Shown here piece after piece: positions 4,398-64,000 of a stretch of 64,000 nucleotides of DNA (its first letter is position 1; each line of letters opens with the position of its first letter). Made by a program: the position numbers and the translations under genes. The notes under the pieces are model-generated. The model was not told where the DNA came from. It made no database searches and worked only from the letters and a program-made list of their open reading frames with translations. Source of the DNA: an uncultured Prevotella sp. (GTDB lineage: Bacteria; Bacteroidota; Bacteroidia; Bacteroidales; Bacteroidaceae); contig CAMCLD010000005.1 of the NCBI GenBank assembly GCA_945875635.1, forward strand, positions 1-64,000, in the 5' to 3' direction.

Positions 4398-5984
4398 TCA
4401 TTTGTCGTAGGCATGGAGAGGGTAATCAGTGGTAAAATGGAGGCCACGACACTCCTTACGCTCAATAGCCCACCTCGTTATCAGATATCCGACATTTATC
4501 ATATTCCTTAGTTCACAGATGTCACGGCTTGCCTTGACCCTCTTGAACAAAGCTTCTGTCTCCTCATACAGTAAGTCAAGTCGGTCCCATGCCCTTTTGA
4601 GACGAAGGTCACTCCTTACGATACCAACATAGTTGGACATTATCTCACCGACTTCCTTAACACTCTGTGTAATGAGGACCTTCTCCTCATTGGTCATCGT
4701 GCCATCATCATTCCATTCTGGAACATCCGTGTTGAAGGAATAGTCGTCTATATGCTCAAGACTATGACGGGCTGCTGTCTCTGCATAAACGACAGCCTCA
4801 ATGAGTGAATTGGATGCAAGACGATTGCCTCCATGAAGTCCAGTGCATGAGCATTCGCCAATGGCATAGAGTCTCTTAATGCTTGAGCAGCCATCGAGAT
4901 TGACCTTGATACCTCCGCACATATAATGAGCAGCTGGTCTCACGGGAATATAGTTTTTTGTAATGTCAATACCTATAGACAGACACTTCTGGTATATGTT
5001 CGGGAAATGGTGTCTTGTCTCATCCGGATTCTTGTGGGTGACATCAAGGCACACATGGTTAAGGCCATGCTTCTTCATTTCCTTGTCGATAGCCCTCGCT
5101 ACAATATCTCTCGGGGCAAGTGAAAGCCTCTCATCGTATTTCTCCATGAAAGTCTCTCCATCGGGCAATCGCAATATACCACCATAGCCACGCATTGCCT
5201 CTGTTATTAGATAAGCAGGATGGGTCTCTCCCTGATGATAGAGAGCAGTCGGATGGAACTGTACAAACTCCATGTCTGCCACTGTGCCCTTTGCCCTATA
5301 AACCATAGCCTCACCGTCACCGGTTGCAATAATAGGATTGGTGGTTGTCTGATACACCGCCCCACAGCCGCCAGTACACATAAGCGTAACCTTGCTGAGA
5401 TAGGTATCCACCTTCTCTGTTGCAGGATTGAGCACGTAAGCTCCGAAACATTCGATATCGGGTGTCCGCCTTGTCACCTCTACTCCGAGATGATGCTGGG
5501 TAATTATCTCCACTGCGAAATGGTTCTCCTTTATCTCTATAAATGGATTGGAACGTACTGCCTCCATCAGTCCTCTCTGGATTTCTGCACCAGTGTCATC
5601 AGCATGATGAAGAATCCGGAACTCTGAATGTCCGCCTTCACGATGAAGGTCAAAGTTGCCATTAGCCTTCCTGTCAAAATTGACACCCCATTCCACAAGC
5701 TCGCATATCTGTCCGGGAGCCATCCTGACCACCTGTTCAACAGCAGCTCTGTCGGAGATGAAATCACCTGCTATCATGGTGTCCTCTATGTGTTTTTCAA
5801 AATTATCCACTTCGAGGTTAGTGACCGAAGCCACACCACCCTGTGCAAAAGAAGTGTTTGCCTCATCGAAAGAGGTCTTGCAGATAATACATATCTTTCC
5901 TTTCTTCTCCTTCGCCACCTTTAATGCGTAGCTCATACCGGCAACGCCTGCGCCAATTATGAGGAAGTCGTATTTATATACCAT
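4398..5984 (-). CDS. nadB: L-aspartate oxidase
   Basis: 528 aa; FAD motif DFLIIGAGVAGMSYALKVA, TSFAQGGVA, EFVQFHPTAL, HYMCGGI, ASNSLIEAVVYAE. Confidence 0.92.
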   Translation of the reverse strand: MVYKYDFLIIGAGVAGMSYALKVAKEKKGKICIICKTSFDEANTSFAQGGVASVTNLEVDNFEKHIEDTMIAGDFISDRAAVEQVVRMAPGQICELVEWGVNFDRKANGNFDLHREGGHSEFRILHHADDTGAEIQRGLMEAVRSNPFIEIKENHFAVEIITQHHLGVEVTRRTPDIECFGAYVLNPATEKVDTYLSKVTLMCTGGCGAVYQTTTNPIIATGDGEAMVYRAKGTVADMEFVQFHPTALYHQGETHPAYLITEAMRGYGGILRLPDGETFMEKYDERLSLAPRDIVARAIDKEMKKHGLNHVCLDVTHKNPDETRHHFPNIYQKCLSIGIDITKNYIPVRPAAHYMCGGIKVNLDGCSSIKRLYAIGECSCTGLHGGNRLASNSLIEAVVYAETAARHSLEHIDDYSFNTDVPEWNDDGTMTNEEKVLITQSVKEVGEIMSNYVGIVRSDLRLKRAWDRLDLLYEETEALFKRVKASRDICELRNMINVGYLITRWAIERKECRGLHFTTDYPLHAYDK

Positions 5985-5994
5985 AAGTTATACA

Positions 5995-6110
5995 AGTTTT
6001 AAGTTGACAAGTAAATAAGTCAACGGGTTAACAAGTTGATACTCTTATGGCTTGAGCTTGCCAACAACCATGAACACCATTAACTGGTTTACTTGTAGAC
6101 TCGTCAACTA
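5995..6110. repeat. Octamer-ladder inverted repeat element, copy A
   Basis: GTTGACAA GTAAATAA GTCAACGG GTTAACAA GTTGATAC (6003-6042) and TGGTTTAC TTGTAGAC TCGTCAAC (6085-6108). Confidence 0.75.
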
Positions 6111-14739: not shown

Positions 14740-16083
14740 TTACTTCTTTATCGGATATTTCAATACCAGCAGCACAATGATAACCGCTATCACTGCGGGG
14801 AACAGCGAGAAGAGCGACCATATCATCGAGAGAACCGAATCGGTGATAGATGCCGGATCGACAATCGTGTTGCCCATATCGTCGGTTGTCATACTTGCTC
14901 CTGCAATGCCAAGGAACAATGCGACAAGCGAACCGGAGATGGCTGTACCGAACTTCTGCGACATCGTTCCTGAAGAGAAGATTAGTCCTGTTGAGGAGCT
15001 TCCGTTCTTCTCTGTGGCATAGTCAGCCACGTCGGCATACATCGACCACAGCAGTGGAGAATAGAGTCCGATGCCCACGGATGTAAGTACCACCAATGCC
15101 ACCATCACCCATATATATGCCGGATCCATGGGCACAAAGAAGAAGGCCACAGAGAACACGGCGCATATAACTGCGGATATGATGAAAGCCTTGCTCTTGG
15201 AACCTACTTTCTCAGTAAACTTCGGTGAAACACCACCGAAAATCATACAAGTAAGCTCGCCAAAGGTCATAAAAACGGTGTAGTTGATAATCAGTCCGCT
15301 GATGGTTATCTCGCCACCAAGACAGTAAGTGAGCATATATCCCGCAACGGCATAGCGGAAACCGTTGAAGAAGTTTGTACACACTCCTATCAGGGTGAGA
15401 TAAATCCATGGCTTGTTCTTAACAAGGTCGGCAAACTGCTTGAACGAGAATTTCTCAGCACGCACCGGCTTCAGACGCTCCTTGGTGAGAAGTCCGCAGG
15501 CAAGTGTCATAACAGCGGCAATGATACCGAATGCGGCACCGAGCACTGCATACTGGTGAGACTCACTGCCTCCCACCATCTTCTGAAGATATGGGAAGGA
15601 AAGCAAGGTGGCGAATCCCATGGCGTAGGCACCAACCATACGGAACGACGAGAACTGGTTCTTCTCGTTGTCATCCTCAGTCATCACTCCCAGGAGTGAG
15701 CCATAAGGCACGTTAACCATAGTATATACTGCCATCATCAGCAGATAGAGTGTATAGGCATAGATGCGCTTGCCCTCGTAGGCGAAGTCTGGAGTATAAA
15801 GCAGCATTGCGAAGATTAGTCCGAAGGGAACTGCTCCGAAGATGAGCCAAGGGCGGTAAGTGCCCCAGCGCGACTGTGTGCGGTCGGCCAAACTACCCAT
15901 AAGGGGGTCGGTGAACACGTCGAACAGACGTGCTATTAGCATAAGTGTGGCTGTGTCGGCGAATGTCAGTCCGAACACATTAGTGAAGAATAGCGGGAAG
16001 GCTATCGACATTATTTTCCATGTGATACCTCCAGCGGCTGCATCACCAAGGGCATATCCAATTTTTTCTTTTAAGTTTGACAT
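14740..16083 (-). CDS. GPH-family sugar:cation symporter (MFS), likely disaccharide importer
   Basis: KEKIGYALGDAAAGGITWKI, FDVFTDPLMGSLADRTQSRWGTYRPWLIFGAVPFG. Confidence 0.88.
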   Translation of the reverse strand: MSNLKEKIGYALGDAAAGGITWKIMSIAFPLFFTNVFGLTFADTATLMLIARLFDVFTDPLMGSLADRTQSRWGTYRPWLIFGAVPFGLIFAMLLYTPDFAYEGKRIYAYTLYLLMMAVYTMVNVPYGSLLGVMTEDDNEKNQFSSFRMVGAYAMGFATLLSFPYLQKMVGGSESHQYAVLGAAFGIIAAVMTLACGLLTKERLKPVRAEKFSFKQFADLVKNKPWIYLTLIGVCTNFFNGFRYAVAGYMLTYCLGGEITISGLIINYTVFMTFGELTCMIFGGVSPKFTEKVGSKSKAFIISAVICAVFSVAFFFVPMDPAYIWVMVALVVLTSVGIGLYSPLLWSMYADVADYATEKNGSSSTGLIFSSGTMSQKFGTAISGSLVALFLGIAGASMTTDDMGNTIVDPASITDSVLSMIWSLFSLFPAVIAVIIVLLVLKYPIKK

Positions 16084-16094
16084 ATTGTTTTTTT

Positions 16095-16222
16095 GTTAAC
16101 AAGTTAACGAGTTGACAAGCTGACAAGTTAATGGGCTGTTGAGTTAACGAGTTGACAAGTTGACGAGTTATTACTGCTTACGCAAATAACTTGTTTACTT
16201 GTCAACTTGTTCACTCGTCAAC
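16095..16222. repeat. Octamer-ladder inverted repeat element, copy B (most regular)
   Basis: Ten consecutive 8-mers GTTAACAA GTTAACGA GTTGACAA GCTGACAA GTTAATGG GCTGTTGA GTTAACGA GTTGACAA GTTGACGA GTTATTAC (16095-16174), then TTGTTTAC TTGTCAAC TTGTTCAC TCGTCAAC (16191-16222). Confidence 0.9.
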
Positions 16223-16226
16223 TGAA

Positions 16227-17390
16227 TTAATTATTCCTGTTTTTTGCTATAAGTTTCTTAATTGTCTCAACACTCTTGGCTGTGTATAAGCCGTCTTCAG
16301 GAGTGTTCATGCAGTAGTCAACGAGTCTGTCGATGGTAGATGTTGCCACATGCATTCTCGTGTCGCTGCTTGCGTAATAGATGAACACCTTGCCGTCATC
16401 ATCGCATATCCATCCATTGGCGAATGCCACGTTCATCACATCACCTATGTATTCCTCGCCCTGAGGCACAAGGAAGTAACCACCTGGCTGTGCTATTACC
16501 TTGGTGGGGTCTTCAAGAGATGTCATATACATATAAAGGACATAGCGCAGTCCGGAAGCACACCCGCGAACGCCATGTGCCAGATGCAGCCATCCACGGT
16601 CTGTCTTGATAGGATGAGGACCTTCTCCGTTCTTCACCTCCATTATGGTATGGTAATGGCGTGCGTTGATAATCTTCTCTTCCTTCACTTCTGCGTGTGT
16701 AATGTCATCAACAAGTGCCCAGCCAATACCTCCACCAGAACCGGCATCAATGAATCCATCCTGTGGACGTGTGTAAAGCGCATACTTTCCGTCAACGAAT
16801 TCAGGATGCAGCACAACATTGCGCTGTTGGCTCTTTGACTTGAGGTCAGGAAGGCGTTCCCATGTCTTTAAGTCCTTTGTGCGGACGATACCTGCCGTTG
16901 CAGTAGCTGCACTTAAGTCTCCCGGCTGTGAGTCATCGTGACGCTCAGCACAGAACACGCCATATATCCATCCGTCTTCATGGGCTGTGAGTCGCATGTC
17001 ATAGACATTGGTGGCGGGAACTACATCCTCCGGCAATGTCACAGGCTCATCCCAGAAACGGAAGTTGTCTATTCCGTTAGGACTTTCTGCCACTGCGAAG
17101 AAACTCTTGCGGTCTGCACCCTCCACTCTCACGACAAGCAGATACTTGCCGTTCCACTTTATAGCACCAGAGTTGAGTGTAGCGTTCATCATGATGCGCT
17201 GCATCAGATATGGGTTGTCTTTCTCATTGAAATCATAGCGCCACTCCAATGGCGTGTGCTCTGCTGTAAGAATAGGATACTTGTAGCGGGTATATATGCC
17301 GTTGCCCCACTCTTCTGCTACGTTCTTTCTGGTCAGGAGTTCCTCGTGATGTGCTCTTAGAGCCTCAACCTTCTTTTGAAAATCTGTCAT
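16227..17390 (-). CDS. GH130 family phosphorylase, probable 4-O-beta-D-mannosyl-D-glucose phosphorylase
   Basis: 387 aa; [79 protein letters not shown]. Confidence 0.9.
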
Positions 17391-21169: not shown

Positions 21170-21224
21170 AGATATTGTTGCGTAGGTTATGAAGTTGTTT
21201 GGTTGTTAGGTTATGAGGATGTTT

Positions 21225-21290
21225 GGTTTAGGGTATGAGGTAGTCAGGTTTAGGGTATGAGGTAGTCAGGTTTAGGGTATGAGGTAGTCA
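21225..21290. repeat. 22-bp perfect tandem repeat x3 (GGTTTAGGGTATGAGGTAGTCA)
   Basis: 21225-21246, 21247-21268 and 21269-21290 identical; degenerate copies upstream. Confidence 0.95.
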
Positions 21291-21314
21291 GGTCATTTGC
21301 TATAAAATCTGAAT

Positions 21315-21417
21315 GCAATTGTTTGAAATGCTGATAAGGTTAATAATCTTTCGGCTGAAAGATTAATAACCTTTCGGCTGAAAGGTTAATAACCTTATCA
21401 GCAATGAAATAAATTGC
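21315..21417. other. Nested multi-arm inverted repeat (possible cruciform or structured RNA)
   Basis: GCTGATAAGGTTAATAA/TTATTAACCTTATCAGC enclosing ATCTTTCGGCTGAAAGAT and CCTTTCGGCTGAAAGG; outer GCAATT/AATTGC. Confidence 0.85.
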
Positions 21418-21515
21418 GATAGACTAAACAAGCTATTGTGATAGACAAAGCAACCTATAATCCCCGATTTGGGATAATCGTATGTTCATATATCATAATG
21501 TGCAGACTCACATGA

Positions 21516-36442: not shown

Positions 36443-36505
36443 CAGATAGGACTACACATACTTATATCTATATAAAGGAATATCTATATAAAGGAACTAT
36501 ATATA

Positions 36506-53200: not shown

Positions 53201-53257
53201 CTATTTAAGTTAATTATCGCTATTTGAGTTAATAATCACTATTTGAGTTAATTATAA
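53201..53257. repeat. Three 19-bp direct repeats CTATTTRAGTTAATWATNN upstream of the 1248-aa protein gene
   Basis: CTATTTAAGTTAATTATCG / CTATTTGAGTTAATAATCA / CTATTTGAGTTAATTATAA starting at 53201, 53220, 53239. Confidence 0.9.
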
Positions 53258-60412: not shown

Positions 60413-60508
60413 TTTAAGTTGAGGAGTTGACGAGTCAATAAGTCAACGAGTTGCTACTCTTATAGCATGTGTTTGACAATAGCCAGAAAAGCTAATAACT
60501 TGTCAACT
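60413..60508. repeat. Octamer-ladder inverted repeat element, copy D
   Basis: GTTGAGGA GTTGACGA GTCAATAA GTCAACGA GTTGCTAC (60418-60457) and TTGTCAAC (60500-60507). Confidence 0.8.
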
Positions 60509-63779: not shown

Positions 63780-63852
63780 ATGAAAATATTCCGACTTTTC
63801 ATTCTTTTCACAATATTTATTTGTTTAAGTTTCGCATGTCTTCGACATGCTG

Positions 63853-63966
63853 TCAGTTAACGAGTTGACAAGAAGTTCCCTTAAGCTTGCGAAAAAAAAA
63901 CAAGTTGCTGCTCTTCTTGCTTTAATTTGCAAATGAGCAATACAACTAATAACTTGTCAACTAATT
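63853..63966. repeat. Octamer-ladder inverted repeat element, copy E (degenerate)
   Basis: GTTAACGA GTTGACAA (63856-63871), GTTGCTGCTCTT core, TTGTCAAC (63954-63961). Confidence 0.7.
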
Positions 63967-64000
63967 AGAAATTACAAAGTGCGTTAAAATCTATATCCAC

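Follow-up and report, generated by a model that had tools for sequence, protein, structure and literature searches.

An octamer array in the GH130-transporter gap of an uncultured Prevotella sp. is probably one copy of a dispersed, hypervariable repeat family

What is the array of 8-bp units that fills the gap between a GH130 phosphorylase gene and a sugar transporter gene in an uncultured Prevotella sp., and does its capacity to fold matter to the operon? We addressed this question in a stretch of 64,000 nucleotides (the window), in the genome from which it comes and in other bacterial genomes. The array had been placed between GH130 and GPH symporter genes by the first-pass annotation, and the domain assignments agree with this, with both genes on the minus strand. 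The features of the locus are as follows.

14740..16083, minus strand: MFS_2/GPH-type sugar transporter (PF13347), with its ATG 11 nt from the array
16095..16166, plus strand: 5' arm of nine in-register GTTRACRA octamers (from sequence and segmentation; 9 units, 66/72 matches)
16167..16190, no strand assigned: inner stem and loop, GTTATTAC ... CAAATAAC, in which both arms are continued inward (from sequence and fold)
16191..16222, minus strand: four inverted GTTRACRA octamers (from sequence and segmentation; 4 units, 30/32 matches)
16227..17390, minus strand: GH130 phosphorylase (PF04041), with its stop codon 4 nt from the array

On the plus strand the units read, in order from 16095, GTTAACAA GTTAACGA GTTGACAA GCTGACAA GTTAATGG GCTGTTGA GTTAACGA GTTGACAA GTTGACGA GTTATTAC. 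The minus strand from 16222 gives the second arm as GTTGACGA GTGAACAA GTTGACAA GTAAACAA, followed by GTTATTTG. Ten octamers had been counted in the first arm. Nine of them stand in register, one of these (unit 6, GCTGTTGA) being badly degenerate, but the tenth (GTTATTAC) agrees with the consensus at only about half of its positions; the four inverted octamers were found as described. A 19-base pattern of 2.5 units (GTTRACRAGTTRACRAGTT, up to 3 mismatches) matched 16 times in the window, against 0.16 matches expected from shuffling.

The array folds strongly on both strands, with z-scores against shuffled sequence of -6.0 (sense) and -7.2 (antisense). When registers were scored separately, the eight best hairpin registers of each strand all fell on one 8-nt phase. 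The top two registers of the sense RNA were almost isoenergetic (-36.5 and -36.3 kcal/mol, 0.2 apart), and its ensemble was divided among registers. The proposed hairpin that can slip between registers 8 nt apart is thus borne out on both strands. Given the repeat make-up, the fold z-scores and the single phase of the best registers, the initial physical description was right. A scan of the array against Rfam matched only miRNA hairpin models, far under their gathering scores.

GTTRACRA arrays recur throughout the genome, a point on which the first-pass annotation had made its reading depend. In the own genome (2.54 Mb in 100 contigs) the pattern matched near-exactly (up to 1 mismatch) at 209 places, 106 of them forward and 103 of them reverse; the reversed-pattern control gave none. 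These copies were studied as stretches around the matches. The other copies in the window, delimited by pattern matches and segmentation, are as follows.

6003..6108, no strand assigned: second copy, with five plus-strand octamers (6003-6042), a loop and four minus-strand octamers, in a divergent gap 18 nt upstream of the ATG of the minus-strand gene starting at 5984
60418..60449, plus strand: third copy, a single arm of four octamers
63827..64000, plus strand: copy of a MITE-type carrier that continues past the window end, with the end repeat AAGTTTCGCATGT at 63827 and two octamers at 63856-63871

Many copies in the own genome sit in an element bounded by AAGTTTCGCA and TGCGAAACTT, with small hairpins immediately within these ends and the octamer arms in the centre. 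Among 71 candidate end pairs, 22 agreed at 8 or more of the nine flank bases, whereas shuffled flanks gave a mean of 2.0 and a maximum of 6. This excess indicates that the carrier is a MITE with a 9-bp target duplication; duplications matching at all nine bases include TATGGTTAC, GTTATTATT, ATTAATGTA and TATCATTTA. The MITE is present in high copy (genome G000, for example at L072, L080 and L013); its long forms contain octamers and its short forms of about 63-75 bp contain none. Its parent transposase, which would share the TTCAAGTTTCGC end repeat, was not found. The window copy at 16095-16222 had no outer end repeat and no 9-bp direct repeat in its flanks, and neither a transposase nor an insertion boundary was found for the non-MITE copies, to which it belongs. 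The octamer family is wider than the AAGTTTCGCA/TGCGAAACTT MITE.

Other possible associations were also assessed. An origin from RAYT transposases was rejected, since PF01797 (Y1_Tnp) had no match in the own genome (97% complete, 100 contigs) and matched in control genomes. PF09226, a HincII-type restriction domain (core GTYRAC), had no match in the own genome or in the control genomes. The octamer arrays were without match in phages, and only one 37-base partial match was found in plasmids. A 26-bp module (GAGTTCCCTTGAGCTTGCGAAAAAAC) breaks up octamer arrays (L058, L077 and L173) in the own genome and in one other genome. The 26-bp module GAGTTCCYTTGAGCTTGCGAAAAAAC of some arrays was considered as a mobile marker and dropped, with 10 matches here and 1 weak match among 99 other genomes.

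Across the genus, exact matches were found in 40 of 200 genomes, from 1 to 176 per genome, and many close relatives were without arrays; the reversed control gave 1 match in one of the 200. In the phylum sample just 2 of 398 genomes had exact matches. Among the matches listed from a scan of species genomes, arrays occurred in Prevotella, Hoylesella, Bacteroides, Phocaeicola, Parabacteroides, Limimorpha, Dysgonamonadaceae, Lentimicrobiaceae and Niastella. The 80 loci listed comprised 71 titled Bacteroidota, 5 from other phyla and 4 titled only as bacteria. The family is amplified in the own genome and patchy over genus and phylum, and its unit is almost unchanged across distantly related Bacteroidota. 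GTTGACAA, GTTGACGA, GTTAACAA and GTCAACAA were the commonest among 1551 units from many species, and variation was mostly A/G at positions 4 and 7. Positions 1, 2 and 5 were 95-97% invariant, partly by construction because inclusion required at least 6 of 8 matches. Strings of two octamer units were not found in the literature, as far as searchable papers go. We conclude that this is a widespread and genuine repeat family, undescribed in the literature that could be searched.

The number of octamers differs between close genomes. Arrays were compared in only two pairs of such genomes, of species other than that of the window. The arrays at L160 and L192 (98% identical) had 14 and 12 units, a difference of exactly 16 bp. 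Between the complete genomes G559 and G545 (about 95-97% identical at the loci), arrays differed by 24, 24 and 8 bp, and in addition by larger blocks with spacers (43 and 158 bp) and by the presence or absence of one array. At L351/L410 the left arms were 24 bp apart and the right arms 8 bp plus a 34-bp block, which indicates that the arms change independently. Array gaps were multiples of 8 in 4 of 11 cases (p 0.04), and substitutions were about twice as frequent in arrays as in flanks (9.4% against 4.9%, p 2e-6). Octamers are therefore gained and lost in register between near-identical genomes, in the manner of a minisatellite or VNTR, and homologous copies retain the 8-bp register, as the first-pass annotation expected. 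We infer that slippage is the process behind these changes.

The same annotation expected pairing to be conserved among copies, and this expectation failed. In 29 two-armed elements the arm identity at the best register was 0.839 within copies against 0.813 after permutation (0.839 was reached by 7 of 500 permutations, which also mix species), and the longest shared arm stretch was 12.2 against 12.1. The two arms of one copy are thus scarcely more alike than arms taken from different copies. Homologous copies showed no covarying base pairs of the kind that would mark a structured regulatory RNA. In 46 two-armed elements located in same-strand gaps, the antisense RNA was the more stable in 32 and the sense RNA in 13, and the two were equal in 1 (p 0.007). 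The choice of A or G in the spacers was unlike between the two sense arms (p 0.004), and as a result A-C mismatches arise in the sense strand where the antisense strand has G-U pairs. One-armed half elements were common. Taken together, the weak arm match, the independent arm lengths and the less stable sense RNA do not support a hairpin under selection. The hairpins come from the self-complementarity of the unit by itself.

The placement of arrays relative to genes was evaluated in a first sample of 113 elements and in a second of 58, for which the predictions were fixed beforehand. Codirectional gaps accounted for 58 of 71 and 40 of 48, respectively (pooled 98/119 against 173/266 in the background, p 7e-4); the excess was significant in the first sample and in the pooled data but not in the second sample alone. 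A stop codon lay within 20 nt of 33/44 and 29/38 outward-pointing edges (62/82), against 7/32 and 2/19 inward-pointing edges (9/51). Much of this adjacency arises because the arms point outward in short gaps. Edges lying close to genes on both sides would be expected of insertion into a short operon gap. Start-codon polarity was marked in the 113 elements of the first sample (p about 3e-5 to 5e-4). In the second sample it was 12/28 against 4/20 (p 0.13), and a crude ATG test gave p 0.59. We do not claim a start-codon rule because the preference was not significant in the second sample. Some arrays end 5-17 nt before an ATG, and 27 of 113 arrays overlapped called genes.

The history of this particular gap was approached through 29 same-genus relatives with a close GH130 homologue. 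In 27 of them GH130 is likewise followed by such a transporter. The gap between the two genes is often 0-45 bp and of other sequence, several relatives have unrelated hairpin-like sequences in it, and octamers were never present in these orthologous gaps. In genome G052 (locus L105), the homologous gap is filled by a 9-bp self-complementary tandem repeat with the unit CYTTAARGW, which has about 100 matches in G052, fewer in six other genomes and none in the own genome. One gap has thus received different repeat families in different species. It could be imagined that a general process in Prevotella and relatives fills operon gaps with short-period self-complementary arrays of species-specific unit (8-bp GTTRACRA, or 9-bp CYTTAARGW in the same gap) and that unit-number variation is used as a tuning knob of expression, but we regard this as improbable.

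Several known repeat systems share features with the octamer family. BrickBuilt of Porphyromonas gingivalis is a MITE/minisatellite with a 23-nt unit; it is reported from a single species, whose type strain has 19 copies (PMC4596501). Like the octamer family, it is an intergenic, MITE-carried tandem repeat of Bacteroidales with predicted long stem-loops and a strain-variable unit number. However, the octamer family has an 8-bp unit, two opposed arms, many host species and copies without MITE ends, such as the window copy; it resembles BrickBuilt in kind, not in unit or host range. REPs are single palindromes of 20-40 bp with a GTAG or CGTC tag, and the GTAG ones are tied to RAYT transposases (PMC3733652; RepRanger, PMC12306157). 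As with REPs and BIMEs, which are extragenic palindromes partly located in operons and patchy between species, the octamer copies are numerous, extragenic and near gene ends. In contrast, they are tandem octamers without a GTAG tag, in a genome without Y1 transposase. The GTAG tag is absent from 16095-16222, and CGTC occurs there only within the repeating unit. PINSR of Prevotella intermedia, a 188-bp repeat reported to be without terminal inverted repeats (PMC4755523), is likewise a high-copy intergenic non-coding repeat limited to part of Prevotella; it is set apart from the 8-bp unit by its description only, since its consensus is shown in a figure.

The short tandemly repeated repetitive (STRR) sequences of cyanobacteria are likewise very short tandem units dispersed in intergenic DNA, but they are heptamers from another phylum. 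We know of no STRR with two opposed arms. The term itself is used in, for example, PMC4748335.

By the features tested, the octamer element is not a REP, and it is not a terminator. An intrinsic terminator is hardly conceivable: a stable stem-loop does follow the stop codon of the GH130 gene, but A rather than T comes after the stem on the sense strand, neither a terminator-like site, with a GC-rich stem and a U-run, on either strand nor a sigma-70-like site was found at the array, and convergent gaps were not enriched (5/71 array gaps against 41/237 background gaps in the first sample). A functional intercistronic mRNA hairpin resembling E. coli REPs, which would shield the GH130 message from 3' decay or damp the transporter, is a more serious candidate and still a rather unlikely one. 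It would suit the exact position between two same-strand genes, the strong fold on both strands, the enrichment of codirectional gaps and the hairpin-like sequences at this gap in several relatives. However, the sense RNA is the less stable in 32 of 45 untied elements, the arms scarcely co-evolve, half elements are common, and many relatives have a gap below 45 bp and no element. It is unlikely that the array is a contingency device in which octamer slippage, by altering the spacing or the structure ahead of the next gene, would switch or tune its expression from cell to cell. Such a device is consistent with the in-register differences between close genomes and with the arrays that end shortly before an ATG, but the start-codon polarity failed to replicate and the neighbours here (GH130, sugar transporter, 2-epimerase) seem atypical of phase-variable loci. 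Even less probable is recognition of the 8-nt unit by a DNA- or RNA-binding protein, for which the array would provide multiple binding sites. The near-invariance of positions 1, 2 and 5, partly a product of construction, points towards it; the free variation of unit number and arms, the many close relatives without any octamers and the different 9-bp unit of another species argue against it.

We consider that the window array is probably a member of an 8-bp repeat family that is dispersed, hypervariable and self-complementary, and that any effect on the operon would be incidental. The family behaves most like a minisatellite that spreads partly with a MITE. Its unit, 8-bp GTTRACRA (mostly GTTGACAA or GTTGACGA), is arranged in two opposed arms around a short loop. 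Slippage or unequal exchange, favoured by the self-complementarity of the unit, may make the arrays longer or shorter; new sites may be seeded through transposition or recombination; and arrays may be kept where insertion harms little, chiefly in short same-strand gene gaps. The window copy is presumably transcribed with the GH130-transporter operon and would be able to adopt several hairpin registers spaced by 8 nt. If transporter expression is affected at all, this would be a by-product, and we saw no sign of selection on the fold. The array could have a role in operon expression, but the evidence gathered here does not support one. Several observations sit uneasily with the repeat-family reading. 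A near-identical unit in distant Bacteroidota would not be kept by drift alone, arrays hug gene ends, the codirectional excess is significant only in the first sample and after pooling, and neither transposase nor insertion boundary was found for the non-MITE copies.

In Prevotella-type genomes of the gut, rumen and mouth such arrays are common. They change length quickly, are found in the gaps between operon genes and can interfere with annotation. Should they be neutral, they offer ready-made strain markers and a natural slippage assay in Bacteroidota. If they tune expression, they would be a new source of variability in carbohydrate-use operons.

Other repeats were encountered during this work. 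The complete, two-contig genome G559 of the same genus contains another AT-rich repeat (AATTCATAATTCAAAATTCATAATTATGAT type) with more than 60 occurrences (L417-L427). In the window, an intergenic cluster of 22-24-bp tandem repeats (TTAGGGTATGAGGTAGTCAGGT, GCTGAAAGGTTAATAACCTTTCG and others) occupies 21183-21458, and short tandem arrays lie at 53201-53255 (19-bp unit CTATTTGAGTTAATTATCA) and 36464-36505 (16-bp unit ATATCTATATAAAGGA).
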